A DNA stretch of 64,000 nt from Asticcacaulis benevestitus DSM 16100 = ATCC BAA-896 (lineage in GTDB: Bacteria; Pseudomonadota; Alphaproteobacteria; Caulobacterales; Caulobacteraceae). The stretch covers positions 1-64,000 of the forward strand of contig NZ_AQWM01000015.1 in NCBI RefSeq assembly GCF_000376105.1. The letters run 5' to 3'. Positions 15,062-61,926 of the stretch are shown here, in pieces. Every line of letters begins with the position of its first letter. The first letter of the stretch is position 1. The notes under the pieces are model-generated. The model made no database searches. It was not told where the DNA came from and saw only the letters and a program-made list of their open reading frames with translations. A program made the translations under genes and the position numbers.

Positions 15062-17872
15062 TTAGAACCTGTAGCTTACGCCCAGCTTGTAAGAGGCGCC
15101 ATAACGGTTATAGCCCTGCGGCAACAACGGATTGCCGTTGATGCTGTAGGTATTGGCTTCATCGAGCAGGTTTTGCCCTTCGAGTGATATGTCGAGACTA
15201 TCGTTAACCTTGTAGGACGCGTGGGCTGTAACCCAGGTGATTGGGTCAGACTGTTCATTGTAGCCCGCGCCCAACACATTAATCGCGGTCACGAAGCCAT
15301 CGGTATGATCGCCGGTAAGGCTCAGCGACACCTTACCGTGATCATAAAACACACCAAGCGAATACACGGACGGTGCTATGCCTTCGAGCGGACGTTCTTC
15401 ATCGCCGACCCAGCTTTTGGACCAGTTTCGGGTATACTGCGCGCGCACGCCTAAACCGTTGTCAAGGAAGTGTTGCAGGCCGATTTCTATACCCTTGACC
15501 TTGGCGTAGTCACCGTTGATCGGGCGGCTGATATTAAACAGATGACCCGGCACACCGATGTCCTGACCCGGCTCCCAGCTCCTGGTGATCTGATCTTCGA
15601 TGTGCTTGCTGAAGGCCGCAAAGTTGAGTATCGAATTCTTGCTGAAGTACCATTCCAAGGAGGCGTCGAACTGATCAGCCGAGTAAGGCTTCAAAGCGGC
15701 GTTACCGCCATAGATCTGAGTAAATTCGCCCCAGGAAATGCTCTCAGTCGTGTTGGTCGGAGCCAGCGTCTCGACCGACGGACGCGCCATGGTCCTGGCG
15801 GCGCCAAGGCGCAGGCGCAGCTCGTCTGTGATGCGGTAGTTGAGATTGGCCGACGGCAGGATGTAGGTATACTTGTTGTCTTGTTGCACCGAAGTTGGGT
15901 CGGCATAGACGGCTATAAAGTTGAAGGCGCCGTTTTCAATGATGTCGAGGATCTTAGCGTCCCAGGCCTGAGCGGTCGTGTTGGTTTGTACAACGCGCAC
16001 GCCGACATTGCCGCTCCAGCGCTCACCTTCAAGATTGGCCTGGACATAGCCCGACCAAGTCTTTTCCCCAACGCGGTAGCTTTGCAGTGGATTCCAAACG
16101 GGCGCGGCGGCTGCGTAGTCGTAAGGTTCGCCGTCCAGTCGCAGGTTGCCATCATAGCCGGCGAGGGCTTTTTGATAGCTGGCGATATCGAAGGCCAGGA
16201 AGGTCCGCGGGAAATTGCCGCTCACCTCACTCATGAAATTCGGCAGGCTGAAACTGTGCGAAATGACATCGGCGTTGAGATCGCCGACATTGATAGCATT
16301 ATCTCCGGAGTAATAGTCGGCGCCGCCGGTCAGGGAGTTGTTGACGAGGTCGCGTGACTTTTTCCGGTCGGTGTAGTTGAGACCAAATTGCAGGCTGTCA
16401 AACCAGGATTTGCCGACCTGCCACTTGCCAGAGAAGGCGGCGCCGTTGATTTCGTCGTCAATATTATCACCCGCCAGCGAGAAGTAGTGGGTGTTGAAAT
16501 CGGAGTCGGTGAATTGGCCCTTTGCCAGACCGCTGGCGAGATCGCGGCCGTCATCAAAGTTGACTGTGACGTTCGGCACATAGGCGCCGGTCAGTTCGAT
16601 ATGGGCCGTATTGGCCTGGTTCATGCGCAGCACGACATAGCTGTCCTGGCCACCAGAATGGCGCGAGGAGGTCGAGCGATAAAGATCGCCGGTCAGGGTC
16701 AGGCTATCCGAGACGTTCCATGCCGCGTTGACGCCATAAAGGCTGGTATCGACGACGCGATACGAGGTTTGATTGAGCAGTTCCGGATTGAGGCGCATTT
16801 CCGGATCGGGATTGTCCATATCGAAACTCGTGACGATGCCGTTCTGGATCTGCATGTTGGACCAGCGGCCGGGCGCATAGAGCGGATAGAAGGACTGCTG
16901 ATAGCCGACTTGAGGCGAGTCGAGCTTGGTCGTCAGACCGTCCACGACCAGTCGGAAATTATCGCTAGGGCGCCATTCCAGCTTCGCCGTATAGGCGCTG
17001 CGCTTCTTCTGTTCGAGGATCGAGCCGACGCGGAATTGCCCGGGCGCGATCAGGCCATATTCGTCTTCGTCCAGTTTACCATTGTTGTTGGGATCGATAT
17101 TGCCGCCCCAGGCATTGCCGTACCAGTCGGTGTCCGGCACCGGATTGCGCGTCCAGCCGCCGTCATTGCCAGCTATATCTGTTCGGTCGTCGCGTTCTTC
17201 GAGGACGACGCCAAGCAACACGCCAAACTTGTCGTCGGCAAAGGTGGTGCTGTAAACGCCCGACAGCTTCTTACCATCAAGGTCCGACATCTGGTTGCGG
17301 TCGCCTTCAATGCGGACGATGCCGTGCGGGCCACGCTTGTCGAAGGGGCTTGCCGAGCGCAGATTGATCAGACCGCCGATGGCGCCTTCGGTGTTGGCGG
17401 CTTCCGCGCCCTTGATGACGTCAGCGCCGCTGATCACGTCAGAGGGCAGCACGTCGTAGGCGAAATCGCGGCCGGCGCCGTCGGTGGCCAGAATGCGGCC
17501 GTTGAAGGTCGACAGCGTGTATTCGGGGCCAAGACCACGCACGCTGACCTTCTGGCCTTCGCCGCCCGCCGTGCGCGAGATGGATACCCCAGTGATGTGG
17601 CTGAGAGAGTCGGCGACGTTGTCGTCAGGGAACATGCCGAGTTCCAGGGCGCTGATCGAGTCCTGAACCGTGGTGGCGTCGCGCTTCAGTTTGACGGCGC
17701 GGGCGACGCTGCCGCGCACCCCTACGACGACCACCTCCTGTATCGGCTCATCGCTTGCCGGTTCAGGGGCGGGGGCTGTCTCTTGGGCCTGGCTGAGGGA
17801 GGCTGCGAAACTGAGGGCCATGACGGCCGCACTGGATATGAGCCATTTTTGATATCGGGACGTGGTCAGCAT
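15062..17872 (-). CDS. TonB-dependent outer-membrane receptor (Xanthomonas/Caulobacter type)
   Basis: A 936-residue receptor that would take up an oligosaccharide across the outer membrane with TonB energy. A Sec signal peptide (about 1-29, cleaved after SQA) is followed by a TonB-box-like stretch IQEVVVVGVRGS, a plug domain (about 60-170: DNVADSLSHITGVSISR and SVRGLGPEYTLSTFNGR) and a 22-strand barrel ending in YKLGVSYRF with the C-terminal Phe needed for barrel insertion. It belongs to the large TonB receptors common in Caulobacter and Xanthomonas carbohydrate loci. The start has AAGGAGA eight bases upstream. It is divergent from the AgaR-like regulator, and two TTCGTTTT motifs lie in the shared gap, so it probably imports galactosamine-containing oligomers for the genes downstream. 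Confidence 0.92.
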   Translation of the reverse strand: MLTTSRYQKWLISSAAVMALSFAASLSQAQETAPAPEPASDEPIQEVVVVGVRGSVARAVKLKRDATTVQDSISALELGMFPDDNVADSLSHITGVSISRTAGGEGQKVSVRGLGPEYTLSTFNGRILATDGAGRDFAYDVLPSDVISGADVIKGAEAANTEGAIGGLINLRSASPFDKRGPHGIVRIEGDRNQMSDLDGKKLSGVYSTTFADDKFGVLLGVVLEERDDRTDIAGNDGGWTRNPVPDTDWYGNAWGGNIDPNNNGKLDEDEYGLIAPGQFRVGSILEQKKRSAYTAKLEWRPSDNFRLVVDGLTTKLDSPQVGYQQSFYPLYAPGRWSNMQIQNGIVTSFDMDNPDPEMRLNPELLNQTSYRVVDTSLYGVNAAWNVSDSLTLTGDLYRSTSSRHSGGQDSYVVLRMNQANTAHIELTGAYVPNVTVNFDDGRDLASGLAKGQFTDSDFNTHYFSLAGDNIDDEINGAAFSGKWQVGKSWFDSLQFGLNYTDRKKSRDLVNNSLTGGADYYSGDNAINVGDLNADVISHSFSLPNFMSEVSGNFPRTFLAFDIASYQKALAGYDGNLRLDGEPYDYAAAAPVWNPLQSYRVGEKTWSGYVQANLEGERWSGNVGVRVVQTNTTAQAWDAKILDIIENGAFNFIAVYADPTSVQQDNKYTYILPSANLNYRITDELRLRLGAARTMARPSVETLAPTNTTESISWGEFTQIYGGNAALKPYSADQFDASLEWYFSKNSILNFAAFSKHIEDQITRSWEPGQDIGVPGHLFNISRPINGDYAKVKGIEIGLQHFLDNGLGVRAQYTRNWSKSWVGDEERPLEGIAPSVYSLGVFYDHGKVSLSLTGDHTDGFVTAINVLGAGYNEQSDPITWVTAHASYKVNDSLDISLEGQNLLDEANTYSINGNPLLPQGYNRYGASYKLGVSYRF

Positions 17873-17962
17873 GCGTGTGTCTCCTTGTGTCGCAAATGGG
17901 CGGGCTGGCGCCTTCCCTTATGTTGCGATTTATGTACGGTTTCGTCTGCATGTCTAGATTAT

Positions 17963-17998
17963 CTTTCGTTTTATATGTCATTCGAAACAAAAACGAAG
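17963..17998. promoter_or_regulatory. candidate AgaR operator pair between TonB receptor and agaR
   Basis: Two opposed copies of a TTCGTTTT motif: CTTTCGTTTTATATGTC on the plus strand at 17963-17979 and CTTCGTTTTTGTTTCGAATG on the minus strand (17979-17998). The same core occurs at 22111-22135 and 25387-25407. As I recall, AgaR-type DeoR regulators use a TTTCRTTTY-rich site, which fits. The pair lies 90-125 bases upstream of the receptor start and 135-170 before the regulator start, so it could control both. Confidence 0.6.
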
Positions 17999-18133
17999 CA
18001 AAATTGACACATTTTTCGTATCTGATCCTATTCTGGCCGCGTTGGGAATGGCGGCGAGGTTGAAATTCCTCCACAATTGAGTGATAAGCGAAACCTCAGG
18101 CGCGCCGGGGTGCGTCTTACGAAGGTTAAGACT

Positions 18134-18928
18134 ATGGCGGAAGATTCCGTAAGACTGACGCGCGACACCTCCGAGCGTCGGCGTGACATCACATCCATGC
18201 TCAAGTCGCGCGGCAGCGTTCAGGTGGTGGCGCTGTCAGAGCAATTCGGCGTATCGATGCAGACGATCCGCAAAGACCTGCATTATCTTGAGGAGCACGG
18301 AATCGCCACGCGCGCTTATGGCGGCGCGATTTCCTCAGAAGTGGTGACGGTCAATGCCGAGCCGCCGATCGAGACCAAGCGCGTGATCCACACCGAGGAA
18401 AAGGAGCGGATCGGGCAATTGGCCGCCGGCATGGTGCAGCCGGGTGATTCGATCATGCTCGATTCCGGCACCACGGCACTGCAGATCGCCCGCTTTCTGC
18501 CGGATGATGAGGATATCACCGTTGTCACCAATGATTTCGGTGTCTTGTCAGCCTTGGCGCAGAAACGAAAGATAAAGATCATCATGCTGGGCGGCGAGCT
18601 GCGCCGCAAGAACATGGCCTTCTATGGCGCGCAGACCGTGGCGGCGCTCGATGAGCTGCTGCTCGACAAGCTGTTCTTGGGTGTCGATGGTTTCGACGTC
18701 GAGCGGGGTATCACCACGCACCATGAACCGGAAGCGCAACTGAACCGCAAGATGGTCGAGACGGCGCGTCAGGTCATCGCTGTTACCGACTCGTCGAAGT
18801 TCGGCAAGATATGCCTTCACCGCATCATCGATATCAGTGAAATCGACGTTCTGATCACCGACGCCGATGCGCCCGAGTTTATTCAGGAGGCGGCGGAAAA
18901 GCTTGGGTTCAAGCTACATCTAGCGTAA
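18134..18928 (+). CDS. agaR: DeoR-family regulator, AgaR-like
   Basis: A 264-residue DeoR-family repressor. The N-terminal winged helix (about residues 14-68) reads RRDITSMLKSRGSVQVVALSEQFGVSMQTIRKDLHYLE, and the C-terminal sugar-phosphate sensor (DeoRC, about 85-245) includes MLDSGTTALQIARFLP, VVTNDF, LGGELRRKN and TDSSKFGK. I use the ATG at 18134, preceded by AAGG, since the frame upstream from the TTG at 18077 adds only an unstructured basic segment. Family members sense a phosphorylated sugar such as tagatose-6-phosphate or galactosamine-6-phosphate. Its place beside AgaZ, AgaS and kinase genes and the repeated TTTCGTTTT sites supports an AgaR role. It is divergent from the TonB receptor and convergent with the GH27 gene. 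Confidence 0.82.
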   Translation: MAEDSVRLTRDTSERRRDITSMLKSRGSVQVVALSEQFGVSMQTIRKDLHYLEEHGIATRAYGGAISSEVVTVNAEPPIETKRVIHTEEKERIGQLAAGMVQPGDSIMLDSGTTALQIARFLPDDEDITVVTNDFGVLSALAQKRKIKIIMLGGELRRKNMAFYGAQTVAALDELLLDKLFLGVDGFDVERGITTHHEPEAQLNRKMVETARQVIAVTDSSKFGKICLHRIIDISEIDVLITDADAPEFIQEAAEKLGFKLHLA

Positions 18929-19075
18929 TAGATCGGACGCATACCTGAGAAGCATCACGTCGATAAAGCCGCGGTTCGTAAACACGTAATATTGGAGTGT
19001 TGATTGCGTCGACATATCTCCAAAATGTGTAGATGAGCCTTGGGGCATGGCAAGCTGATCGGCCGTACGATGACC

Positions 19076-20998
19076 TTACTTTTTCAGCGCCGCATCGGCC
19101 CAGGTGACAACCAGCGGCAGGTCGCTGGATTGGGCGGTGTTGCGCACAACCAGTTCAACGATCTTCACATCGACAAGGTCGGCTTTTAAAGGTTGCGCTT
19201 CCTGCCCATAAGCAGCCGTCGCTTCGGTCAGCAGACGGCCGTCGCCGAAGACCTGAAACACCACCTTGTCTTTCAGGTTGCGCGTGCTGTCATCGATGCC
19301 GACCTTCGCCTCAAAGCGCGTGTAACCCGTGGCCCTCACCTCCAGGCGAGAATTGGCCAGGATACCGATGCCCGACAAAAACGCCTGCCCATTGATCTTC
19401 AAGGCCTGGTCGTAGGGCGTGGCATCGGCCTGGGCGCCGCCCCAGCCGGTGTAGGTCGGGCGTTCGCCGCCATTGATCGTGGCGCCCCACGGATTGCTCA
19501 TGCGGTGGACGATCGGATCGGGCTCCGGCGCGACGATGCCGTCACGAGCCACATTGAGGGCGCCGGGTATCTCCGACAGGTAGAAGCCATCAGGGAGTTG
19601 TCGCTTGCCCCTGGCCTCAAAGACACGGGATTCGCGCGGCTGCAGGGTGATTTTCAGTTCGCCTTTCAGCGTCAGCGCCGCCTTTGACCACAGGTCGGTG
19701 AGAGCGACGTCGCCGATCATCTTCATCTGCTCAGGTGTCAAGGTGACATCCGCTGGCGCCAGTCCGCGATTGAACAGCAGCACGCCCTTGGTGCCGGAAT
19801 CACTCAGCGTCTTGACGAAGATCTGCACGTCGTCGGAATCGTACGCCAGCACGGCCTGATGGCCGCCGCTGTCCTGATTGAGGCGGATGATATCCTTATT
19901 GGCCCAGATGTTCATCAGTTCCGGCGGGGCGTTGCGCAGGTCATAGCCGATCATCAGCGGGGCATTGATCATGGCCCACAGTGAGAAGTGGGTATGTGCC
20001 TCGGTCAGATGCTTTTCGTCGAAATCGCCATGACCTACGAACAGCATGTCGGGGTCGTTCCAGTGACCCGGGCCGGCATAGAGGGCGCGCGTTGAGGCGC
20101 TGTCGAAGGTGTGCAGCATGCGCGTCCATTGCGGTGTGATATCGCCGCTGGTCCGCCACAGATTACCGACCTCCTTGCCCCATGACCGCACATCAGCGGA
20201 GCCCCAGGCACAGATCGAGAAAATGTAATCGCCGTCCGGATTACTGCTGGCCAGGGCATCCGCGACCTCCTGATAGAGGGCGCGCACGGCCGGAATATTG
20301 GTGCGGTTGATGCTGGTCTGATCGATCAGCGGCGGAAAGCCGTTATACTTGTACTGCTTAACCACAGCGCTATCCGGCGCATAGACATTGAGGCCGCAGG
20401 CATCGACCTTGATATAATCGAAACCCCAGTCCCCAAAGTACAGCTTGATATCCTGCTGGACATGACCGAGCAGGCCGACCTGACGTTCTGCGGTCGTGCC
20501 TTCGGGCAGGTTGGGCGAATGCAGGTCATAGGCCTGTGAGCAGGCATTGCCGCCGATATCGCTGTAGATGCCGGCCTTCAGACCCATGCTATGCAGGGTG
20601 TCGGTGAAGGGGCGGAAGCTTGACGTCTCGCTGCCCTTGATCTTGGCCGACGGGAAGATCTGGGTACGCACCTGCATGCGGTTATCGCTGGTCCGGCGTT
20701 TCAGCCACCAGCCGTCGTCGATATTGACATAGGTGTAGCCGAGGTCGCGCAGGCCACTATCGACCAGCACCTTGGCTGTGCCCATCACCTTGGCTTCGTC
20801 GATCTCGGTGTGGAAAGCGTTCCACGAATTCCAGCCCATTGGCGGGGTAGGGCTGCGTCCCGCCGTGGCGCCGGTCCAGCGACCGGCGGGGGCCAGCGGA
20901 TCAATGGACGCTTGTGCAGCGGTTGCCTGCGCCATGGCGGTTTGAGGGAGCGTAGGCGCTGTCAGCAGGGTGAAGGCGAGGAGGGTGGCCTTGAGCAT
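19076..20998 (-). CDS. GH27 alpha-galactosidase / alpha-N-acetylgalactosaminidase, exported
   Basis: A 640-residue enzyme with a Sec signal peptide (about 1-23, after AMA). The GH27 barrel starts at PPMGWNSWNAF (about residue 53), continues with YVNIDDGWW, the nucleophile Asp in DYIKVDACG (about 197) and the acid/base Asp in GHWNDPDML (about 313). A beta-sandwich follows, and the last 150 residues form an NPCBM-like module (GGERPTYTGWGGAQADATPYDQ, then GIGILANSRLEV). GH27 enzymes remove terminal alpha-galactose or alpha-GalNAc by a retaining mechanism; the two cannot be separated from sequence by eye, but a GalNAc/galactosamine locus favours the latter or both. Its start lies 7 bases after the amidohydrolase stop, so the two are one operon. 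Confidence 0.88.
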   Translation of the reverse strand: MLKATLLAFTLLTAPTLPQTAMAQATAAQASIDPLAPAGRWTGATAGRSPTPPMGWNSWNAFHTEIDEAKVMGTAKVLVDSGLRDLGYTYVNIDDGWWLKRRTSDNRMQVRTQIFPSAKIKGSETSSFRPFTDTLHSMGLKAGIYSDIGGNACSQAYDLHSPNLPEGTTAERQVGLLGHVQQDIKLYFGDWGFDYIKVDACGLNVYAPDSAVVKQYKYNGFPPLIDQTSINRTNIPAVRALYQEVADALASSNPDGDYIFSICAWGSADVRSWGKEVGNLWRTSGDITPQWTRMLHTFDSASTRALYAGPGHWNDPDMLFVGHGDFDEKHLTEAHTHFSLWAMINAPLMIGYDLRNAPPELMNIWANKDIIRLNQDSGGHQAVLAYDSDDVQIFVKTLSDSGTKGVLLFNRGLAPADVTLTPEQMKMIGDVALTDLWSKAALTLKGELKITLQPRESRVFEARGKRQLPDGFYLSEIPGALNVARDGIVAPEPDPIVHRMSNPWGATINGGERPTYTGWGGAQADATPYDQALKINGQAFLSGIGILANSRLEVRATGYTRFEAKVGIDDSTRNLKDKVVFQVFGDGRLLTEATAAYGQEAQPLKADLVDVKIVELVVRNTAQSSDLPLVVTWADAALKK

Positions 20999-21005
20999 GA
21001 TGATC

Positions 21006-22091
21006 CTACTTACGGATAAATTCGCGGCGGGCGTTGGCGTAGTAGATCTTGTCGATTACGCTTTTTGGCAGGGCCAGGCCTTTCGGATCGGCGTCTATAT
21101 CATCGACGTGCTGCGTTTCGGGCGTGGCCAGATAGGTCCAGTCGCCCAGCCAGTAAGCGTGCGCCGTCGTCTTGAAGGCGACCGTGTCCTCGCCCGGATT
21201 GAGCGTCAGGTCGGTGCCGTACATGATGCGGTCCTGGTAGGTGATGAAGAAGGTGCGCACCTTGTCGTAATCGCGCACCGACTGATACTGGATCTGCGTC
21301 ATGCGCGCCGCCAGCTCGATATTGGCATTGGGGTGGGCATCGAGGAATTTGGCCGCCTCATCGACGCTCCATTCCAGACTGCCGACGTGGGCGCCAACAA
21401 AGGCAAGGTCGGGGTGGCGCGTCACGAAGCGATCGCGCGCCGCCATCAGGAATTCGTAGGTCGGCATCTCCGGATGGAGATACATGTAATACTCAGGATG
21501 GTGGCTGAAATATTCGCGGTCATTATTGGTTGTCATCTGGTCCATCGGCAGCCAGCAGTTCTTGGGCTCGGCCTGGTGGGCGATCAGGGGTTTCTTCGCG
21601 GCGATGATATGGGCGATGACCGGATCGAAGCGCGGATCATCAAGGAAGATCAGCTTGCTGTCGGCATCGCGCTCGATCATGCCGATATTCTTCCAGATCT
21701 TGACGGCGACAGCCCCCTGCTTGAACTCTGAATCGAGATGAGCGTTGGTGGTCTTGACCCAGTCCGCGCCGGTGAAGCCCTTCATGGTGAAGGTAGTGGC
21801 ATAATGGAAGTGTTTCGGATCGGCGGTGTGGAATTTGTGCGCGGCGGCCGCCTGATCCTCGATCGACGGAAAGGCCGGATAGTCGACGTTGATCGACAGG
21901 ATCTCGAAACCGTCGGCCCTGGCTTGATCGACAAAGGCGGGATCGGTGACATTGACGTGGACGTGGGCGTCGAACTTCTTCACGGCCGCAAAATCTGCCA
22001 CGCTGTAACTGGCCTCGGTGGCGCAGGCGCCGGTGGCCATCAGGGCCGAGGTGGTGAGAAGGCTTATCAACAGACGGCGCTTGCGGATCAT
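21006..22091 (-). CDS. exported amidohydrolase-2 family lipoprotein
   Basis: A 361-residue metal-dependent hydrolase of the amidohydrolase_2 (PF04909-type) TIM barrel. Visible metal-ligand motifs are FDAHVHVN near the N-terminus, GAHVGSLEW in the C-terminal half and MYGTDLTL near the end. The N-terminus MIRKRRLLISLLTTSALMAT is followed by GAC, a good lipobox, so it should be anchored in the periplasm or outer membrane. I chose the ATG at 22091 with GGGAG eight bases upstream; longer in-frame starts lack a signal. The substrate is unknown: the family covers decarboxylases, lactonases and deaminating or deacylating hydrolases. Operon with the GH27 gene and divergent from GH36 over a gap with TTTCGTTTT motifs, which ties it to the amino-sugar regulon. 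Confidence 0.75.
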   Translation of the reverse strand: MIRKRRLLISLLTTSALMATGACATEASYSVADFAAVKKFDAHVHVNVTDPAFVDQARADGFEILSINVDYPAFPSIEDQAAAAHKFHTADPKHFHYATTFTMKGFTGADWVKTTNAHLDSEFKQGAVAVKIWKNIGMIERDADSKLIFLDDPRFDPVIAHIIAAKKPLIAHQAEPKNCWLPMDQMTTNNDREYFSHHPEYYMYLHPEMPTYEFLMAARDRFVTRHPDLAFVGAHVGSLEWSVDEAAKFLDAHPNANIELAARMTQIQYQSVRDYDKVRTFFITYQDRIMYGTDLTLNPGEDTVAFKTTAHAYWLGDWTYLATPETQHVDDIDADPKGLALPKSVIDKIYYANARREFIRK

Positions 22092-22110
22092 CAGTCGGCT
22101 CCCAATTGGC

Positions 22111-22158
22111 ATGAAAACAAATAAAACGAAATTTAATGTTGCGTTTTCGTGTCTTTTT
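22111..22158. promoter_or_regulatory. candidate AgaR operators in divergent promoter of amidohydrolase and GH36
   Basis: On the minus strand 22115-22134 reads AAATTTCGTTTTATTTGTTT, sharing TTTCGTTTTATnTGT with the site at 17963 and nearly the whole site at 25387. On the plus strand 22142-22158 reads CGTTTTCGTGTCTTTTT, a weaker second copy. The pair sits in the 146-base gap between the two divergent genes, 20-65 bases from the amidohydrolase start, well placed for repression of both transcripts. Confidence 0.6.
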
Positions 22159-22237
22159 GTTTGCCTTTTTAATTTGACATATGCAAGATTAAAAATGAAC
22201 CCTGCTGCAGATGACGGCCAACACGGAGGACAAACGC

Positions 22238-24322
22238 ATGAAACCTCAAGGACTGACCTCTGGCGGCCTTCACAGGCGCGGACTGCTTTTGCTTCTGTCC
22301 GGTACGGTGATCGCCTCCGGCCTGATGGCACGTTCCGGCTTCGCACAATCGGCGGCCGTGGCCAGCTTTGGCGATGAGGTTATCACGCTCGATTTTGATC
22401 TGGGTCTCAACAGCCGCGTCAGCTTGCGCACCAAGGGCGCGGCGCGGGCCCTGACCGATTTTGCGCCATCGGAAACACTTACCCTGGTCGATGGCAAGAG
22501 CATCGACCGCTTTACATACAAGGATAAGGCGCAAAAACCGGTCAAGGATGCGCATGGCAAGGGCAGGGCGTTTACGATACGCGGCGTTTCGGCCGAAGGT
22601 GTCGAAAAGACCGTCCAGATCACCCTCTATGACAGCTATCCCGGTTTCGCCGTCACCCGCGTCACCTATCGCAACACCAAGTCCACGCCTCTCGATATCG
22701 CAAGCTGGACCAGCCACTCTCATATCCTTAAAGCCAGCGGCGCCGGCTTCTGGTCGTTCTCCGGTTCGTCACATGACGATCGCCGCGACTGGGTGCAGCC
22801 GGTCAAGGCCGGTTTCGACCAGCCCAATTTCATGGGCATGAATGCCTCCGATTATGGCAGCGGCACGCCTGTGGTCGATGTCTGGCGGCCGGATGCCGGT
22901 CTGGCGGTCGGCCATATCGAAACCACCCCGAAACTGATTTCCCTGCCTTTGATCGCCACGCCGGCCGGCGCGGGCGTCGCCATCCGTTACGACCATGCGG
23001 TGAAACTGGCCAGCGGCGACAGTCTGACAACGCTCGATACCTTTGTCACCGTGCACACACGCGATTACTTCTCCACGCTCGACACCTACCGCAAGGTCAT
23101 GGCCGATCGCGGTCTGGCGGCGCCGAAACCGCCGGCCTCATCCTATGAGCCGGTTTGGTGCGCATGGGGGTATCAGCGCAATTTCACGGTCGAGGAGATT
23201 GAGGGCACTCTGGCCAAGGCCAGGGATGTGGGCTTAAAATGGGCGGTGCTCGACGACGGCTGGCAGACCTCCGAGGGCGACTGGCATCTCGACACCAAGA
23301 AGTTCCCGCGCAAGGATGCCGACATGATCGCCTTCGTGCAGTCGATCAAGGCGGCGGGCCTGCGGCCGCGCCTGTGGCTGGCGCCACTGGCCACCGATCC
23401 GGGCACGGACTTGCTGCACGATCACACCGACATGCTGCTGCTCAATCAGGACGGCGCGGTGCAAAACGTCACCTGGTGGAATGCCTTCTATCTGTGCCCG
23501 GCCTATCAGCCGACGAAGGATTACCACAAAGCGCTGATCAGGAAGATCATCGGCGAGTGGGGCTATGAGGGCTTGAAGCTCGATGGCCAGCATATGAATG
23601 GCGTCGCGCCCTGCTACAATCCGGCGCATAACCACGCGCGCCCGGAAGAGTCGGTCGAGCAGTTGCAGGATTTCTGGAAGCTGATCTACGATACGGCGCG
23701 CGAGGCCAATCCCGCAGCCGTCGTCGAATTCTGTCCGTGCGGCACATCTTACGCTTTCCACAATCTGCCCTATACCAACCATGTGCCGGCCTCCGATCCC
23801 TTGTCCTCGTGGCAGGTCCGCCTGAAGGGCAAATCGCTAAAGGCCCTGATGGGCGGGGACGCCGCCTATGCCGGCGATCACGTCGAGCTTTCCGATGGCG
23901 GTAACGATTTCGCCTCGACCGTCGGGATCGGCGGCATCGTCTCGACCAAGTTCGCCTGGCCCGGTCCGGGGCACGAAAAGGGCCAGAACTACCAACTCAC
24001 GCCGGAGCGCGAAGTGGTGTGGCGCAAGTGGATTGGGCTCTATAACGACAAGCAGCTTGCCACCGGCCAGTATCGTGGCGAACTCTACGATATCGGCTTT
24101 GACAAGCCCGAAGCCCATGCGGTCGAGAAGAACGGCAAGCTCTACTATGCCTTCTATGCCGACACATGGACCGGCGAGGTCGAGCTGCGTGGCCTTACCC
24201 AAAAGCGCTACAAGCTGGTCGACTATTTTAACGACAAGGCGATGGGCGAGGTGACGCCGGTCGCCAACCGTCTACCGGCTCGTTTCGAGCGCTTCCTGCT
24301 GATCGAAGCCACACCAGTTTAA
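22238..24322 (+). CDS. GH36-type alpha-galactosidase / alpha-N-acetylgalactosaminidase, exported
   Basis: A 694-residue enzyme with an N-terminal signal (RRGLLLLLSGTVIASG, twin Arg but not a full Tat motif). Residues about 40-300 are the beta-sandwich; the barrel begins near EPVWCAWGYQRNFT and shows WAVLDDGWQ, the nucleophile Asp in GLKLDGQHMNG (about 448) and the likely acid/base Asp in PASDPLSSW (about 518). The motifs place it in clan GH-D, family GH36, in a branch unlike the classic RafA enzymes. A retaining alpha-galactosidase or alpha-N-acetylgalactosaminidase is expected. The ATG at 22238 has GGAGGA seven bases upstream and is preferred to the ATG at 22211. The EamA carrier gene begins 13 bases after its stop. 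Confidence 0.82.
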   Translation: MKPQGLTSGGLHRRGLLLLLSGTVIASGLMARSGFAQSAAVASFGDEVITLDFDLGLNSRVSLRTKGAARALTDFAPSETLTLVDGKSIDRFTYKDKAQKPVKDAHGKGRAFTIRGVSAEGVEKTVQITLYDSYPGFAVTRVTYRNTKSTPLDIASWTSHSHILKASGAGFWSFSGSSHDDRRDWVQPVKAGFDQPNFMGMNASDYGSGTPVVDVWRPDAGLAVGHIETTPKLISLPLIATPAGAGVAIRYDHAVKLASGDSLTTLDTFVTVHTRDYFSTLDTYRKVMADRGLAAPKPPASSYEPVWCAWGYQRNFTVEEIEGTLAKARDVGLKWAVLDDGWQTSEGDWHLDTKKFPRKDADMIAFVQSIKAAGLRPRLWLAPLATDPGTDLLHDHTDMLLLNQDGAVQNVTWWNAFYLCPAYQPTKDYHKALIRKIIGEWGYEGLKLDGQHMNGVAPCYNPAHNHARPEESVEQLQDFWKLIYDTAREANPAAVVEFCPCGTSYAFHNLPYTNHVPASDPLSSWQVRLKGKSLKALMGGDAAYAGDHVELSDGGNDFASTVGIGGIVSTKFAWPGPGHEKGQNYQLTPEREVVWRKWIGLYNDKQLATGQYRGELYDIGFDKPEAHAVEKNGKLYYAFYADTWTGEVELRGLTQKRYKLVDYFNDKAMGEVTPVANRLPARFERFLLIEATPV

Positions 24323-24335
24323 TCGAGGGAACACC

Positions 24336-25256
24336 ATGAACGAGCCCATGCCGGAAGGCGCACCGTCCGCGCTACCTGTCAGCAGCCATGGCAAGCGCTG
24401 GCTGATCTATGCTCTCGGCGTGGTGGGTTTGTGGGGCGTCTGGGGCGCCTTCACCGGCATTTCTGCGCAACGCGGCTTCCCGGAAACCCTGACCTACTGC
24501 GTCTGGGCTCTGACCATGATCCTGCCGGCGCTCTACGTGTTGTGGAAGGCCGGCTGGAAGCTCGATCATAACCCGCGCGCCATCCTCTACGGCCTTGTTA
24601 TCGGGCTTTTGGGCGCCGGCGGCCAGATGGTGTTGTTCTATGCCGTCAATACGGGGCCGGCCTATCTGATCTTCCCGGTGATATCGCTGTCGCCGCTCGT
24701 CACCATCCTGATGTCGGCCCTGTTCCTCAAAGAGCGGACAACGAAACTGGGCCTGCTCGGTGTCGTGCTGGCCCTGATCGCGCTGCCCATGTTCGACTTT
24801 TCGCCGGATAAGGGCTTTTCCTTCATGAATGGCGGGGTGTGGTTTCCGCTCGCCCTGATTATCATGGCGTGCTGGGGCGTGCAGGCCTATTTCATGAAGC
24901 TGGCCAACAACTCCATGACTGGCGAGAGCATCTTCTTCTACATGATGCTGACCGGCCTGATGCTGATTCCGGTCGCGCTTATGATGACGGACGTCTCCAA
25001 GCCGATCAATTTCGGCCTCGACGGCCCATGGCTGGCGGCGGGTATCCAGGTTCTCAATGCCATCGGCGCGCTCTGCCTTGTCTTTGCCTTTCGCTATGGC
25101 AAGGCCATAGTGGTGGCGCCGCTGACCAATGCCGGCGGCCCGTTGGTGACCGCGGTCATTTCGCTCATCGTCGCCAATATCATTCCCGGGGAACTGAAGA
25201 TCGTCGGTCTTGTTCTGGCGGTGATCGCCTCGGCCCTGCTGGCTCTGGCGGCCTGA
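24336..25256 (+). CDS. EamA/DMT-superfamily permease, candidate amino-sugar carrier
   Basis: A 306-residue integral membrane protein with about ten hydrophobic segments in two EamA halves (first half about 25-160, second about 175-305), no signal peptide and no soluble domain. DMT carriers move small metabolites across the inner membrane; the rhamnose and glucose-uptake relatives show that sugar import is possible in the superfamily. The gene is translated right after GH36 (GAGGGA before the ATG) and no other inner-membrane sugar transporter is found in the amino-sugar locus, so I infer transport of GalNAc, galactosamine or galactose. The substrate is not visible in the sequence. A terminator follows at 25282-25308. 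Confidence 0.8.
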   Translation: MNEPMPEGAPSALPVSSHGKRWLIYALGVVGLWGVWGAFTGISAQRGFPETLTYCVWALTMILPALYVLWKAGWKLDHNPRAILYGLVIGLLGAGGQMVLFYAVNTGPAYLIFPVISLSPLVTILMSALFLKERTTKLGLLGVVLALIALPMFDFSPDKGFSFMNGGVWFPLALIIMACWGVQAYFMKLANNSMTGESIFFYMMLTGLMLIPVALMMTDVSKPINFGLDGPWLAAGIQVLNAIGALCLVFAFRYGKAIVVAPLTNAGGPLVTAVISLIVANIIPGELKIVGLVLAVIASALLALAA

Positions 25257-25281
25257 GCCATTTCCTTTCTGTGCCGCGCTC

Positions 25282-25316
25282 GGCCGGTCTTGTTCCCCAA
25301 GGCTGGCCTTTTGTGT
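25282..25316 (+). terminator. rho-independent terminator after the EamA gene
   Basis: GGCCGGTCTT at 25282-25291 pairs fully with AAGGCTGGCC at 25299-25308 (two G-U pairs) across a seven-base loop, and is followed by TTTTGTGTCTGTTATTTCTTTTT-like T-rich sequence (from 25309). It separates the GH36-EamA transcript from agaZ, which has its own candidate operator. Confidence 0.75.
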
Positions 25317-25386
25317 CTGTTATTTCTTTTTGTAACCTTTCTCACGGGGCGCAAAGGCAGTTTTCGGCAGAATGATCATTTTACAT

Positions 25387-25407
25387 GTTTCGTTTTCATT
25401 GTTTTGG
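25387..25407 (+). promoter_or_regulatory. candidate AgaR operator upstream of agaZ
   Basis: GTTTCGTTTTCATTGTTTTG (from 25387) matches the minus-strand site at 22115-22134 in most positions and shares TTTCGTTTT with the site at 17963. It lies about 70 bases before the agaZ start and after the terminator at 25282-25308, where an operator for a separate agaZ-agaS-kinase-GH114 transcript would be expected. Confidence 0.6.
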
Positions 25408-25472
25408 TTGCGTTGTCGTCGTCAAAGCGCTAGGGTTGGCGCAACATCCATTCCTCTTCGTAAGGAAATCCC

Positions 25473-26783
25473 ATGAAGGCCATGCTCGATCTGGTCGCCA
25501 GGCATAAGGCTGGCAAGGCCGCTGGCATAACGTCGGTATGTTCGGCCCATCCGCTTGTCGTTGAGGCGACCTTTGCCCATGCGCTCAAGGTCGGCGCCGA
25601 TATCACCCTGATCGAAGCGACCTGCAACCAGGTCAATCAGGACGGCGGCTACACTGGCATGCAGCCGGCCGATTTCGTCGCCTTCGTCTACGCCATAGCC
25701 GATCGCGTCGGCCTGTCGCGTGACCGTATCGTGCTGGGCGGCGATCATCTGGGGCCGAACCCGTGGACCCACCTGTCTGCCGACGAGGCCATGCTCAAGG
25801 CCGAGGTTTTGATTGAGGCCTATGTCGCCGCCGGTTTCCGCAAGATCCACGCTGATTGCTCGATGTCATGCGCCGATGATCTGGTGCCGCTTCCGGAAGA
25901 TACGATCGCCCGTCGTGCGGCACGGCTCATCGCCATTGCCGAAACAACCCACCAGCGCGTCGGTGGCGAAGCCCCCGTCTATGTGATCGGAACTGAAGTA
26001 CCGGTGCCCGGTGGCGCACACGAAGACCTGCCGGAGCTGGAGGTCACCACGCCGGAAGCGGCGCTCGTCACGATCAACGCCCACAAGGCCATTTTCGCTG
26101 AACTCGGCCTCAATCAGGCCTGGCCGCGTGTCATCGCCACAGTTGTCCAGCCGGGTGTCGAGTTCGATCACCATAAGGTCATCGACTATAACCGCGCGAA
26201 GGCCGTCAAGCTCAGCCATGCGCTCGATAATCTCGATACGCTCGTTTTCGAGGCCCATTCGACCGATTACCAGACGCCGAAGGCGCTGAAGCAACTGGTT
26301 GAGGACCATTTCGCCGTTCTGAAGGTGGGGCCCGGTGTTACCTTCGCTTTGCGTGAAGCCCTGTGGGCGCTCGATGCGATCGAGCGCGAGTGGATCGCGC
26401 CTGCGCTTCAGTCCGGCTTCCGCGATGTCGTTGTCGAGCGCATGAAGGCCGAGCCAAAGAACTGGATCAAGTATTATCACGCCACCGGTGCTGATCTGCA
26501 GTTCGACCTGCAATATAGCCTGTCGGACCGCATCCGCTATTACTGGCCGGACGGCCAGATCACCGCCGCGCAAGAGGTGATGTTCAAAAACCTGACGCGC
26601 GGCGCGCCACCCTTGGCATTGGTCAGTCAGTATTTGCCCGATGCCTATGCTATTATCCGCGAAGGCGGGCTGAAGCTGACACCGGAAAATCTGGTCATCG
26701 CGCATATCGGCGCCACGCTTGATGCCTATTACGCTGCTTGTACCCCTGAAACTGTAAGTGCCCTGGAGTTGATTTATGCCTGA
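25473..26783 (+). CDS. agaZ: AgaZ/KbaZ/GatZ family protein (tagatose-6-P kinase or tagatose-bisphosphate aldolase subunit)
   Basis: A 436-residue protein of the GatZ/KbaZ-like family, close to the usual 420-430 residues. Typical segments include GITSVCSAHPLVVEATF near the N-terminus, IEATCNQVNQDGGYTGM, VLGGDHLGPNPW, HADCSMSC and FEAHSTDYQTP. In enterobacteria KbaZ/GatZ assists the tagatose-1,6-bisphosphate aldolase; comparative work on GalNAc pathways has proposed AgaZ as the tagatose-6-phosphate kinase. No KbaY/GatY-type catalytic aldolase is encoded in this window, so one must lie elsewhere if the pathway is complete. AAGGAAA precedes the ATG. It overlaps agaS by eight bases (ATGCCTGA), showing tight coupling. 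Confidence 0.88.
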   Translation: MKAMLDLVARHKAGKAAGITSVCSAHPLVVEATFAHALKVGADITLIEATCNQVNQDGGYTGMQPADFVAFVYAIADRVGLSRDRIVLGGDHLGPNPWTHLSADEAMLKAEVLIEAYVAAGFRKIHADCSMSCADDLVPLPEDTIARRAARLIAIAETTHQRVGGEAPVYVIGTEVPVPGGAHEDLPELEVTTPEAALVTINAHKAIFAELGLNQAWPRVIATVVQPGVEFDHHKVIDYNRAKAVKLSHALDNLDTLVFEAHSTDYQTPKALKQLVEDHFAVLKVGPGVTFALREALWALDAIEREWIAPALQSGFRDVVVERMKAEPKNWIKYYHATGADLQFDLQYSLSDRIRYYWPDGQITAAQEVMFKNLTRGAPPLALVSQYLPDAYAIIREGGLKLTPENLVIAHIGATLDAYYAACTPETVSALELIYA

Positions 26784-27939
26784 GACAGTCGCCCGTTTGG
26801 GCCTGGATGAAACCACTCTGGAAAAGTTGGGTGGCCTGTGGACGGCGCGTGAGATCGAACAACAGCCGGAGATGTTGCGCCAGACACAAAGCCTGCTGGT
26901 GGCGCAGCAAAAAGAGATCGACGCCTTCCTCGCCCCCTTGCTGGCGCGCAAGGTCCGCATCGTCCTGACCGGCGCCGGCACCTCAGCCTTTATCGGCGAC
27001 TGCCTGGCCCCCGCGCTGTCGGCAAAGCTGAGGCAGCGCGTCGAGGCGATCCCGACGACCGATTTTTCCTGCGCGCCGCAGCTTTATTTCGAGAGCGATA
27101 CGCCGACGCTTCTGGTTTCCTTCGGCCGTTCGGGCAATAGCCCCGAAAGTGTCGCCGCTGTCGAACTGGCCGATCGTTTCGTCACCGACCTGCATCACCT
27201 CGTCATCACCTGCAATGCCGACGGCGCGCTCGCCGGCTATGGCAAGGGTTCAAAAGGCCTGACCATCCTGCTGCCCGACGCCACCCACGATCGCAGCTTC
27301 GCCATGACGTCGAGCTTCTCCTGCATGATGTATGCGGGCCTGGCCGTCTTCTCTGGCATCGAAGCTATGCAGGGCCGTATTGACAGCATCGCAACGGCCA
27401 CGCAGGGCGCGCTCAACGACTATACCACCATGATGAAGACGGCGGCCTCGCAGGGCTATGAGCGCATCGTCTATCTCGGCAGTCATATTTTCCAGGGGTT
27501 GGCGCGTGAATCCGGCCTTAAGCTGCTGGAGCTGACCAATGGCGCGCGCGTCACGATGTTCGACTCGCCGCTCGGTTTCCGCCATGGACCGAAGACGATC
27601 GTCAATGCCAAGACCCTCGTTGTCGTGTTCTTTTCCAACAACGCCTATACGCGCTGTTACGATTCCGACCTGCTCGACGAACTGCGCAAGGACAATGACG
27701 CCGCTCGCGTCATCGCCATCACAGCGCAGGACGGTGTCGGCGTCGAGGCCGCCGATACGGTGCGCATCCATGGCTTGGAAACGGCGGACGATACGGATCT
27801 GCTTTTCCCCTATATCATCGGGCCGCAGATCTTCGCCTTCCAGGAGGCCCTAAACCACAAGCTGACGCCGGATAAGCCCAATACGTCGGGCACGGTCAAT
27901 CGCGTGGTGCAGGGCGTGCGGATTCACGAACTGGGGTAG
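26776..27939 (+). CDS. agaS: AgaS-type galactosamine-6-phosphate deaminase/isomerase (SIS domains)
   Basis: A 387-residue protein with two SIS (sugar isomerase) domains, about 45-200 and 215-360. The first has VRIVLTGAGTSAFIGD, LVSFGRSGNSPESVAAVELAD and ITCNADGALAGY; the second has ERIVYLGSHIFQGLARES, KLLELTNGARVTMFDSPLGFRHGPK and the strand VVVFFSNN. This is the pattern of AgaS, which converts galactosamine-6-phosphate to tagatose-6-phosphate plus ammonia, rather than of GlmS, since no glutaminase domain is present. It starts within the end of agaZ and is followed after eight bases by the kinase gene. Together they make the cytoplasmic amino-sugar branch. Confidence 0.9.
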   Translation: MPETVARLGLDETTLEKLGGLWTAREIEQQPEMLRQTQSLLVAQQKEIDAFLAPLLARKVRIVLTGAGTSAFIGDCLAPALSAKLRQRVEAIPTTDFSCAPQLYFESDTPTLLVSFGRSGNSPESVAAVELADRFVTDLHHLVITCNADGALAGYGKGSKGLTILLPDATHDRSFAMTSSFSCMMYAGLAVFSGIEAMQGRIDSIATATQGALNDYTTMMKTAASQGYERIVYLGSHIFQGLARESGLKLLELTNGARVTMFDSPLGFRHGPKTIVNAKTLVVVFFSNNAYTRCYDSDLLDELRKDNDAARVIAITAQDGVGVEAADTVRIHGLETADDTDLLFPYIIGPQIFAFQEALNHKLTPDKPNTSGTVNRVVQGVRIHELG

Positions 27940-27947
27940 TGTAGGAT

Positions 27948-28931
27948 ATGGGCTATCTTCTCGGCGTTGATGGTGGTGGCACCAAGACCGAATTCGTTCT
28001 GGTCGATCAGGGTGGGCGTGTCGTCGCCAGCCATCAGACCGGCACAAGCTACTATATCCAGATCGGCTTTGATGGCTTGCACGAGCTCTTGTCACAGGGC
28101 GTTCATGCCGTGCTTGAGCAAGTGGGCACCACGGCCGCCGACGTCGATCATGCCTTTTTCGGCCTGCCGGCCTATGGCGAGGATTCGACCGCGGAGGCCA
28201 TGCTCGATGTGGTGCCCGAAGCCGTTCTCGGCCATCGCCGTTACACCTGTGGCAATGACATGATCTGTGGCTGGGCGGGTTCGCTCGGCGGCGCCGATGG
28301 CATCAATATCGTTGCAGGCACCGGCTCGATCGGTTATGGCGAACGACAGGGCTTGTCAGCGCGCGGTGGCGGCTGGGGCGAGGTTTTCTCGGACGAGGGT
28401 TCGGCGCACTGGATCGCGATTTCGGGCTTAAACGCCTTTTCGCGCATGGGCGATGGCCGCCTGACCAAAGGGCCGCTCTACGATATTTTCATGCAGGCCA
28501 TGGATCTGAAAAATGATCTCGACATCTGCGGTCATGTCTTTGGCCGCGAAACACCTTCGCGCGACCGCATAGCCGCCATGTCGAAACTCGTGGCCGAGGC
28601 GGCGGAGCAGGGCGACCGCGTGGCGTTGCGCATCTTCGATTCCGCCGGTTACGAACTGGCCGCCATTGTCGACGCCATCCGGCTTAATCTCCACTATGGC
28701 GCCGATGAGCCTGTGGCCCTGTCCTATTCGGGCGGTGTTTTTCGCTGCGGTGCGCTTATTCTGGAGCCCTTCCGCAGGCACCTCAACAGCTTCTCTATGA
28801 TGTACGATGTGCGGGCGCCTTTGTATTCGCCGGCGATCGGGTCGGTGATCTTCGCGGCGAGGAAGTCGTTGGGCGAGGTGCGACCGGAGTTTCTCGAAGC
28901 TCTGGCCAAGCCAGTGCCGGCTTCGTCATGA
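27948..28931 (+). CDS. agaK: BadF/BadG-type amino-sugar kinase, AgaK-like
   Basis: A 327-residue kinase of the BadF/BadG/BcrA/BcrD ATPase family (actin-like fold), the group that includes N-acetylglucosamine kinase and the GalNAc kinase of Shewanella. The phosphate-1 loop is LLGVDGGGTKTEFVLVD at the N-terminus, the adenosine/phosphate-2 region is NIVAGTGSIGYG, followed by GGGWGEVFSDEGSAHWI, a pattern of these sugar kinases. It should phosphorylate GalNAc, galactosamine or GlcNAc at C6; the context favours galactosamine-type sugars. The gene sits between agaS (eight-base gap) and the GH114 gene (four-base ATGA overlap). No GalNAc-6-phosphate deacetylase (AgaA/NagA) gene is in this operon. Confidence 0.83.
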   Translation: MGYLLGVDGGGTKTEFVLVDQGGRVVASHQTGTSYYIQIGFDGLHELLSQGVHAVLEQVGTTAADVDHAFFGLPAYGEDSTAEAMLDVVPEAVLGHRRYTCGNDMICGWAGSLGGADGINIVAGTGSIGYGERQGLSARGGGWGEVFSDEGSAHWIAISGLNAFSRMGDGRLTKGPLYDIFMQAMDLKNDLDICGHVFGRETPSRDRIAAMSKLVAEAAEQGDRVALRIFDSAGYELAAIVDAIRLNLHYGADEPVALSYSGGVFRCGALILEPFRRHLNSFSMMYDVRAPLYSPAIGSVIFAARKSLGEVRPEFLEALAKPVPASS

Positions 28932-29785
28932 CGCTGAAGGCCGCTTTTCCACCGATGTTTGTCGCTGTTACATGCCTCGCCGTCATTTTTACAGGATGCG
29001 GCGGCGGTGGCAGCAGCACGGGCGGAGGTGGGGCATCCTCCTCGTCATCGTCTTCATCAGCGGTTTCATGGTGGCAGCCTGATTTGAGCGCGACATGGCA
29101 ATGGCAACTGACCGGCACGTTCAACACGAGCTACAATGTCGGCGTCTACGATATCGACCTGTTCGACACGCCTGCGGCCACCATCACCAGTCTGAAAGCC
29201 GCCGGCCGCAAGGTGGTGTGTTATTTTTCCGCCGGTAGTTCGGAAAACTGGCGCTCGGATTTCAGCCAGTTCACGGCCGCCGATCAGGGCACTCCACTTG
29301 ACGGCTGGGCCGGTGAAAAGTGGCTGGATATCCGTTCCTCAAACGTCCGCACCATCATGGCGGCGCGACTTGATCTGGCGCGGGCTAAGGGTTGCAACGG
29401 TGTCGAGCCCGATAATGTCGATGGCTACGCCAACACGACCGGCTTGCCCCTGACGGCCGCTGATCAGATCACTTACAATAGCTGGCTCGCCGATGAAGCC
29501 CATGCTCGCGGGCTGGCGATCGGTCTGAAGAATGATGTTGGACAGCTGGTCGGAAAGTTCGATTTCGCCGTCAATGAGCAGTGCCATTTCTACAATGAAT
29601 GCGGCGATTACCGCCTCTTCATCACGGCGAAAAAACCTGTCTTCAATGCCGAGTACGATACGCCTTACGTCACAAATGCCGGCGGGGCGCGCGATACCCT
29701 GTGTACCGCCGCCCGCACGGCGGGCTTGCGCACCTTGGTGCTGCCGCTCAGCCTAGACGACAGTTTCAGATATAGCTGCGACTGA
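28928..29785 (+). CDS. GH114 endo-alpha-1,4-polygalactosaminidase-like lipoprotein
   Basis: A 285-residue lipoprotein. The signal ends at the lipobox VIFTGC (Cys at about residue 23), followed by a Gly/Ser-rich flexible linker (to about residue 46) and a single TIM-barrel domain of the GH114 type: WQWQLTGTFNTSYNVGVYDIDLFD, GRKVVCYFSAGSSENWRSD, the acidic segment GCNGVEPDNVDGY (about 158-170), GLKNDVGQL and FAVNEQCHFYNECG. GH114 members cleave alpha-1,4-linked galactosamine polymers, including the fungal galactosaminogalactan. It overlaps the kinase gene by four bases, so polymer cleavage at the surface and cytoplasmic phosphorylation are co-translated. It ends exactly where the convergent GH3 gene ends. 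Confidence 0.85.
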   Translation: MTLKAAFPPMFVAVTCLAVIFTGCGGGGSSTGGGGASSSSSSSSAVSWWQPDLSATWQWQLTGTFNTSYNVGVYDIDLFDTPAATITSLKAAGRKVVCYFSAGSSENWRSDFSQFTAADQGTPLDGWAGEKWLDIRSSNVRTIMAARLDLARAKGCNGVEPDNVDGYANTTGLPLTAADQITYNSWLADEAHARGLAIGLKNDVGQLVGKFDFAVNEQCHFYNECGDYRLFITAKKPVFNAEYDTPYVTNAGGARDTLCTAARTAGLRTLVLPLSLDDSFRYSCD

Positions 29786-32500: not shown

Positions 32501-33301
32501 AAAGAGCACTTCCTGTGTAAGCTCGCGCCTCTGGGTGCGCCGTTATGTTAGCGGTATCATCGAAAGGCGGCGGCCGTCAAGACGATCTGCCGCGCATCTG
32601 GTCAGTTCGCTTCGAAGTCGATCGGATCGAGGATCAGCGCTCAGGAACTGGCTTTCCGCATTGGGGCCTGGCAGGTCGATGGCGGCGGTCGCTGATCCCC
32701 CGACGTTCACGCAGGTGAGGCGTGCGCGAAACTGTACCGAAAGGCTTTGGCCGACCTGACAGATGGAGATGGTCGCCTTTAACCGTTTCTGCAACAAACC
32801 TTTAAATTCAGGACGCCCTCTCAAGGCAAGATCGTGAATGTGTCATTACCTTTCGAGCCATCAGATTGCTTTGACAGAGGTTATTATCTCAAAGTGTGAA
32901 AATCATGGCTTTCTGCAAATTTTGTATCGCTGAAAATGTGATGGAAAAGCAACATGCACATGGCGAAATGCAGGCTCGAAGCGCGGACTTAGCGGCGCGA
33001 TAATTCGGTTACGATTCAATCACTTTTTCTGTAAAAGCTTGAATCCAAATGTCATTGCGAAATCGTGATATGGCTAAAATGGTTATGACAACGCTAGGTT
33101 TTGGTTTTCTCGAATCTAGAAATATGACAGGATGACCAAACTAGGATTTGACGTATATCTTGTTTTATATGTAAGAATTGTTTCACCAGTGGCCGTGTAC
33201 CGGGGAATTTTGGTATCAAAATGGTATTGGCAAAGGCTTTGACGGGTCCTGTGCACATGTATTGAAGCATTTCTGCCATGCGGGAAGATGGAGAATAGGG
33301 A
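32501..33301. other. long intergenic region with candidate operator and promoter of lost receptor gene
   Basis: About 800 bases with no credible gene. ORFs here have no domain pattern or start signals. It should hold the promoter of the GH3 gene at the left and of the receptor remnant at the right. A perfect inverted repeat, listed separately, lies at 33207-33222. The left 300 bases are GC-rich like coding DNA, the right part is AT-rich. Confidence 0.4.
33207..33222. promoter_or_regulatory. inverted repeat, candidate operator upstream of the receptor remnant
   Basis: ATTTTG-GTAT-CAAAAT is a perfect six-base inverted repeat about 80 bases before the remnant start at 33302, immediately followed by a second TGGTATTGG. 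The TTGGTAT core also occurs at 62822-62828, in front of a GntR-family gene. It may be a binding site for one of the two GntR regulators at the right end. Confidence 0.4.
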
Positions 33302-35500: not shown

Positions 35501-35552
35501 GCGCAGCTTTGCGCCAACGCTCTAAAAAATGACATCAAAAGAGGAAGCCTCC

Positions 35553-40774: not shown

Positions 40775-40785
40775 AGAGTTCGATC

Positions 40786-42633: not shown

Positions 42634-42642
42634 GAGTAAGGC

Positions 42643-44073: not shown

Positions 44074-44077
44074 GGAC

Positions 44078-46375: not shown

Positions 46376-46386
46376 GAGACACCGTC

Positions 46387-47400: not shown

Positions 47401-47404
47401 GCGG

Positions 47405-53264: not shown

Positions 53265-53268
53265 GGGA

Positions 53269-59674: not shown

Positions 59675-59709
59675 GGTATCTCTGATCTGTAGCGGGCGGT
59701 AACGGGCGT

Positions 59710-61809: not shown

Positions 61810-61926
61810 CCTTGCTTCCTGCCCTTGGATCAACGCTTCGTCCCCAACGATAAGGGGCGACAACATTTACTTAGGAGCGAAATACGGCGTCAGGCTATTG
61901 TGGATTCGCAGCCTGAACTGCCTCTT

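Follow-up and report, generated by a model that had tools for sequence, protein, structure and literature searches.

What is a gene block for that joins a putative endo-alpha-1,4-galactosaminidase to the genes of galactosamine breakdown? The question is raised by positions 15062-29785 of a 64,000-nucleotide stretch of Asticcacaulis benevestitus DSM 16100, which is referred to here as the window and forms part of contig C15 (NZ_AQWM01000015.1) of a 4.99 Mb genome. Our comparisons suggest that the block works as a self-contained unit in the catabolism of glycans with alpha-linked galactosamine, in which a protein of glycoside hydrolase (GH) family 114 would add polymer cutting to a recurring core of eight genes. 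We put the probability of this reading at roughly two in three.

In order, the locus encodes a TonB-dependent receptor of the TonB-Xanth-Caul type (15062..17872, - strand; TIGR01782 575 bits, cut-off 310; PF00593, PF07715), a DeoR-family regulator (18077..18928, +; PF00455 E 8.2e-55; PF08220), an exported GH27 protein with an NPCBM domain (19076..20998, -; PF16499 E 6e-39; PF08305), an exported metallohydrolase of the Amidohydro_2 type (21006..22091, -; PF04909 E 3e-12), a GH36 protein (22211..24322, +; PF02065 with a modest 42 bits, cut-off 27, E 6.6e-11), an EamA-family (DMT) transporter (24336..25256, +; PF00892 E 1.2e-24), AgaZ, which is GatZ/KbaZ-like (25473..26783, +; TIGR02810 620 bits, above the cut-off of 569), the probable galactosamine-6-phosphate deaminase/isomerase AgaS (26776..27939, +; TIGR02815 481 bits over nearly the full length, below the cut-off of 529; 3c3j E 5.1e-93), a BadF-family amino-sugar kinase (27948..28931, +; PF01869 E 4.8e-48; 8zo3, a kinase for N-acetylmuramic acid (MurNAc) and N-acetylglucosamine (GlcNAc), E 6.8e-26) and GH114 (28928..29785, +; PF03537 E 2.8e-87, 292 bits, cut-off 27). 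The start of the amidohydrolase was placed at 22091 on account of its signal-like N terminus, the listed open reading frame being 21006-22346. Every gene named in the initial annotation lies in the stated interval, and its four-base overlap of the GH114 and kinase genes is confirmed (28928-28931). It had been silent on the exported amidohydrolase, the EamA protein, the DeoR regulator and the TonB receptor, all four of which are members of the conserved set.

For the comparison with other genomes, a search that the initial annotation had called for, the core was defined as receptor, DeoR regulator, amidohydrolase, GH36, EamA, AgaZ, AgaS and kinase, leaving aside GH27 and GH114. Among the best 80 of 144 confirmed loci from a GH114-led search of a genome collection, ten carry the core in the flanks fetched (L007-L011, L013, L014, L027, L029 and L035), all labelled Sphaerotilaceae or Burkholderiaceae. 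A GH36-led search of plasmid proteins led to a Burkholderia arboris locus (L091) with GH36, GH114, EamA, AgaZ, AgaS, kinase and regulator, the amidohydrolase and receptor not being found in the 34 kb examined. Searches led by AgaZ within the order (matches in 2 of 249 genomes) and by GH36 within the phylum (4 of 398) added four loci that do not have GH114 (L097, L101, L102 and L103), and among 385 genomes of the class GH36 was matched in the window's own only. In all, the set recurs in distant bacteria: 15 other loci each hold at least six of the eight genes together, which is more than chance would give. With the window counted, the core is complete in 14 of 16 loci; the exceptions are L035, scored on an unextended stretch that ends after six of the genes, and B. 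arboris, which has six and is without receptor and amidohydrolase, while L027 and L029 were scored after a further stretch had been added. An EamA relative occurs in all 16 loci, a DeoR relative was seen in 15 (the stretch of L035 ends before it) and a receptor is likewise present in 15, where those of L101-L103 may be different receptors, given that they are just 36-40% identical to the window's. In a tree of the core, for which the program flagged long branches (including that of L103), the window pairs with L097 (100/99) and B. arboris falls with a Roseateles group (100/100). The flanks of the loci differ, and ten sampled flank proteins, including an MFS transporter (L008), a porin directly after the B. 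arboris GH114 and an extra TonB receptor (L101), comprise no glycoside hydrolase by Pfam. By eye, a reading frame at 460-1773 of L101 is GH1-like.

The nearest solved structure to GH114 is that of fungal Ega3 (6oj1/6ojb, E about 4e-69), with whose Asp189 and Glu247 its D162 and E217 align, a single numbering offset of 24 fitting both in 6ojb. These two Ega3 residues are described as verified catalytic residues in PMC12054363. The N terminus appears by eye to be lipoprotein-like with a Gly/Ser linker. Within the order, a GH114 protein was found in 1 of 249 genomes, the window's own. The tie between GH114 and the Aga pathway drawn by the initial annotation is upheld in that GH114 adjoins the core in 12 of the 16 loci, ten of these 12 having been retrieved through the GH114 search itself; among the five loci found via GH36 or AgaZ, it is present in one (B. 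arboris). It occupies four different positions. In the window it follows the kinase, in seven loci it lies between receptor and amidohydrolase, in three it is found past GH36 in facing orientation, and in B. arboris it comes directly behind GH36. In the GH114 tree, the B. arboris protein forms a pair with an unlinked copy from Pandoraea (100/97) and the window's stands weakly (95/39) beside an unlinked Caldimonas copy, and a single clade of all linked GH114 proteins including the window's is disfavoured (p-AU 0.023). These tests make at least two separate associations of GH114 with the core likely, the alternative being one old association followed by losses.

The sugar that would be released is suggested by GH36. 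A sequence search placed it nearest to the PDB chains 8x1b (E 2.5e-74), 9awt (1.6e-72; match over residues 70-701, most of its length) and 9ayu (2.8e-72), the next being 6lcj (4.5e-11), and a profile of ten GH36 relatives gave the same order (9.5e-89, 8.3e-87 and 1.5e-86; next 1.1e-14). Both 9awt and 9ayu carry the depositors' name A type blood alpha-D-galactosamine galactosaminidase; from this name, and because all nine active-site residues named for FpGalNase in PMC11762096 fit 9awt at an offset of 26, we infer that the 9awt-type chains are FpGalNase. Seven of the nine are kept in the window's GH36 in the printed alignment (W317, D346, D347, W387, K461, C513 and D532). That is, within patch A (W317, D346, D347, W387, K461 and D463) five are kept as printed and D463 by a hand shift only, and in the specificity patch (Y464, C513 and D532) the Tyr is changed, while C510 and D529 of GH36, which correspond to the other two, are kept in 16 of 16 rows of the GH36 alignment. 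Indeed, the active-site residues of the window's GH36 are identical in all 16 rows. The initial assignment of GH36 to the removal of alpha-linked galactose (Gal) or N-acetylgalactosamine (GalNAc) is corrected in that an alpha-galactosaminidase is its nearest relative of solved structure, the 9awt-type chains scoring far above classic GH36 alpha-galactosidases. With its RR-type signal, seen by eye, we propose it as a periplasmic exo-alpha-galactosaminidase.

The exported amidohydrolase is proposed to act as a glycan deacetylase. Its HxH-Lys-His-His-Asp set (H43, H45, K131, H172, H235 and D294), which we take to be metal ligands, is identical in 15 of 15 rows, and neither a sequence nor a profile search returned a PDB relative. 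Close relatives (E below 1e-100) occur, beside GH36, in the same four of 398 genomes as the GH36 matches (G830, G872, G937 and the window's own, G000); a random draw of four genomes would coincide with them at a probability of ~1e-9, a dependent test, as the genes are neighbours and one genome is the window's own. Two more of these genomes hold remote relatives only (E 4e-32 and 4e-26), and the open reading frames listed around the remote relatives (G821, G915), on which no family search was run, gave no functional lead. By eye, GH36 and the amidohydrolase each start with a signal-like sequence, so that deacetylation, if this is the role of the amidohydrolase, would precede import. No relative of the genome's NagA was found in the window and the 15 loci at E 0.01, or in the added stretches L105, L119 and L120 at 1e-3. 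The presence of agaS without agaA has been used as a mark of galactosamine use (PMC5583593). Together with the resemblance of GH36 to an alpha-galactosaminidase, the absence of a NagA/AgaA relative indicates that the sugar released is probably galactosamine.

We thus envisage a pathway whose locations, order of steps and regulation we infer. A surface-tethered GH114 would cut galactosamine-rich chains, and the TonB receptor, likely an outer-membrane importer of galactosamine oligosaccharides, would bring in the pieces. In the periplasm, the amidohydrolase may strip N-acetyl groups, so that GH36 could free galactosamine from the chain ends, and the EamA protein, proposed as an inner-membrane galactosamine importer, would move it inward. 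The kinase would then form galactosamine-6-phosphate, AgaS would convert it to tagatose-6-phosphate, and AgaZ with a general class II aldolase, which may fill the AgaY/KbaY step, would finish the route, the DeoR regulator switching the locus in an AgaR-like role. GH114 would thereby extend to polymers a core that elsewhere may serve shorter glycans of alpha-linked galactosamine or GalNAc.

Several observations weigh against this reading. The genomes of L097, L101, L102 and L103 have the core and no PF03537 match, which makes GH114 a non-obligatory member, and among the 36 GH114 loci flanked on each side by over 8 kb, nine are linked to the core and 27 are not. One clade of the 11 linked GH114 proteins without the window's is compatible with the tree data (p-AU 0.156). 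For GH36, the top-scoring chain 8x1b, whose printed sequence is almost identical to that of 9awt, is called 'alpha-galactosidase' by its depositors; the nucleophile D463 falls on Q460 in the printed alignment, next to a gap of two residues, and meets D458 only after the K-x-D motif is shifted by hand; FpGalNase Tyr464 is replaced under either alignment; and the galactosamine specificity of the clade rests, as far as seen, on one characterized enzyme. Most members of PF04909 are not known as N-deacetylases. Downstream, the best match to the tagatose-bisphosphate aldolase AgaY/KbaY in the whole genome reaches 145 bits against a cut-off of 443.55, so that no dedicated aldolase passes, and AgaZ has been reported both as a kinase and as an aldolase subunit (PMC4694137, PMC12118421). 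Lastly, NagA can stand in for AgaA in E. coli by handling GalNAc-6-phosphate (PMC12118421), and the genome's NagA could do the same.

The initial annotation saw no better match among known polymers than fungal galactosaminogalactan (alpha-1,4-linked Gal, GalNAc and galactosamine), a claim that our comparisons do not support. A locus specific to this polymer would employ GH27 for galactose and GH36 plus GH114 for the rest. Such a specificity is in keeping with the kinship of GH114 to fungal Ega3 and with the place of GH27 inside the window's block, between regulator and amidohydrolase, where the related locus L097 has none. However, within the stretches fetched, no GH27 relative was found in the 15 other loci at 1e-15, 1e-10 or 1e-8, leaving no conserved enzyme for the galactose part; at 1e-3 there is one weak match, in B. 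arboris, inside the GH36 gene. Within the order, 8 of 249 genomes hold a close relative of GH27, and seven of these eight are without a close AgaZ. GH27 is ruled out as a core enzyme by its absence from the other loci, and the sequence comparisons mark it as an accessory to the window's copy of the locus. At the Glu position of the best-matching alpha-galactosidase, 1uas, which is presumably the residue that reads C2 of the sugar, GH27 has Ala; among its relatives the residue varies between A, N, I, L and T. A galactose specificity is therefore unproven and, the position being variable among lineage relatives, no call was made on GH27 as an alpha-GalNAcase either. A second GH27 of the same kind, 59% identical, lies elsewhere in the genome (L114; contig C39, 6030-7943). 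The conserved core comes without an adjoining alpha-galactosidase, a point against any strict need for galactose, and bacterial Pel also consists of GalNAc and galactosamine, with galactosaminogalactan containing Gal in addition (PMC12054363). Fungal galactosaminogalactan would hence be one fitting substrate, and Pel-type polymers and polygalactosamine appear to match the conserved genes equally well; a locus specific to the fungal polymer seems unlikely to us. Activity evidence for bacterial GH114 comes from one partly characterized Pseudomonas enzyme; in PMC12054363, no usable soluble protein was obtained from the bacterial candidates and a fungal GH114 was inactive on Pel. A literature search that covered few subscription papers returned no paper joining galactosaminogalactan with 'utilization locus'.

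GH114 might instead have joined by chance a core that serves O-glycans or blood-group-like alpha-GalNAc of glycoproteins, in concert with glycoprotein-glycan genes to the right. FpGalNase and its deacetylase partner indeed act on blood group A (PMC11762096), genes for GH29, GH92, GH125, GH35 and GH85 lie nearby, and four genomes hold the core without GH114. Yet the GH114 and kinase genes overlap, and GH114 also stands beside the same core, at other positions, in B. arboris and the Roseateles group; we consider this account unlikely. An ordinary GalNAc locus, in which alpha-linked GalNAc would be cut off and taken up, then phosphorylated and stripped of its acetyl group through the genome's NagA, is a rather unlikely account as well. 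It would agree with the presence of nagA in the genome, a family-level reading of GH27 and GH36, the likeness of the kinase to GlcNAc/MurNAc kinases and the replacement of AgaA by NagA in E. coli. However, the loci lack a NagA/AgaA relative, GH36 is FpGalNase-like, the exported amidohydrolase travels with it, and the single nagA over the cut-off sits on contig C4 among other amino-sugar genes, near another kinase, a permease-like and an SIS-type protein (by eye). Finally, a role of GH114 and GH36 in the turnover of a Pel-like matrix made by the cell itself, as opposed to the use of food, is highly improbable. It was set aside for GH114, as the search for PelF, the one Pel gene looked for, gave no match over the cut-off in this genome (27 bits at best, against 100), and the locus has receptor, transporter and catabolic genes, even if Pel and galactosaminogalactan synthesis clusters hold related hydrolases (PMC12054363).

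A catabolic locus for alpha-linked galactosamine glycans, the reading we prefer, would combine features of known systems. AgaS, AgaZ and a DeoR regulator are common to it and the E. coli Aga locus (PMC4694137), and as in Shewanella a kinase, a permease and an outer-membrane transporter replace the phosphotransferase system (PMC12118421). In contrast to both, the locus is without AgaA, has EamA as the sole inner-membrane transporter in the block and adds the exported amidohydrolase, the FpGalNase-like GH36 and GH114. With the FpGalNAcDeAc/FpGalNase pair of Flavonifractor plautii it shares a homologous alpha-galactosaminidase and, presumably, the logic of deacetylating before cleaving, whereas the proposed deacetylase here belongs to PF04909 (no direct comparison with FpGalNAcDeAc was made) and is joined to receptor, transporter and Aga genes. 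GH114 belongs to the same sequence family as Ega3 and the enzyme of Pseudomonas sp. 881, with the catalytic Asp and Glu, but sits in a catabolic locus, while Ega3 lies in a polymer-synthesis cluster. A bolder proposal, which we regard as worth stating although we think it more probably wrong than right, is that the PF04909 amidohydrolase represents a novel type of glycan N-deacetylase that targets alpha-GalNAc ends and EamA a galactosamine importer, forming with GH36 a mobile 'deacetylate before import' pathway that repeatedly acquired GH114 to eat the galactosamine polymers of fungal or bacterial biofilms.

Putative regulator sites lie in three promoter gaps of the locus. The nine-base element TTTCGTTTT (17964..17972, +) in the receptor/regulator gap occurs three times in the 64 kb, the other copies being in the divergent amidohydrolase/GH36 promoter and the EamA/agaZ gap, for which we list the sites TTTCGTTTTATTTGTTTT (22114..22131, -) and TTTCGTTTTCATTGTTTT (25388..25405, +), respectively. 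The expectation is 0.48 copies per 64 kb, and three were reached in 2 of 100 shuffles. The three promoter copies speak for the reading; that the element was spotted first and tested later speaks against it. The 18-base form of the site has no match at up to four mismatches in L101, L007-L011, L013, L014, L029 and L035, and matches with two to four mismatches only in L097, L102, L103, L091 and L027 (one). In L027, L029 and L035, the region upstream of GH114 shows by eye an element that is rich in CGAAA and resembles a palindrome. In B. arboris, a long inverted repeat of TTTCGATTTCTTTCG elements lies between EamA and GH36 (L091, 15734-15783), which is a possible operator.

To the right of the locus, a convergent GH3 xylosidase-like gene (29786-32509, -) directly abuts the GH114 stop with its own. 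A neighbouring GH3 protein is 63.5% identical to one from an Asticcacaulis plasmid. Genes for GH29, a GH2 mannosidase-like protein, GH3, GH35, GH125, GH92 and an asparaginase_2 protein follow on one strand (33749-47400, +) and look like an N-glycan degradation cluster; a GH85 endo-beta-N-acetylglucosaminidase, a second GH29 and a GntR/UTRA regulator (57458-62736, -) perhaps belong to the same system. Between them lie a 794-residue open reading frame (47273-49657, +) for which Pfam gave no match at E 0.001 and a DUF1501/DUF1800 pair (51717-55113, -).

The hyphae of fungi and the biofilms of bacteria are coated with polymers of galactosamine, for which cutting enzymes are wanted as biofilm tools. 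If our reading is true, this polymer-eating gene set would offer endo- and exo-enzymes that match each other, a galactosamine importer and possibly a new family of deacetylases, and it would reveal recyclers of galactosamine polymers in soil and water.

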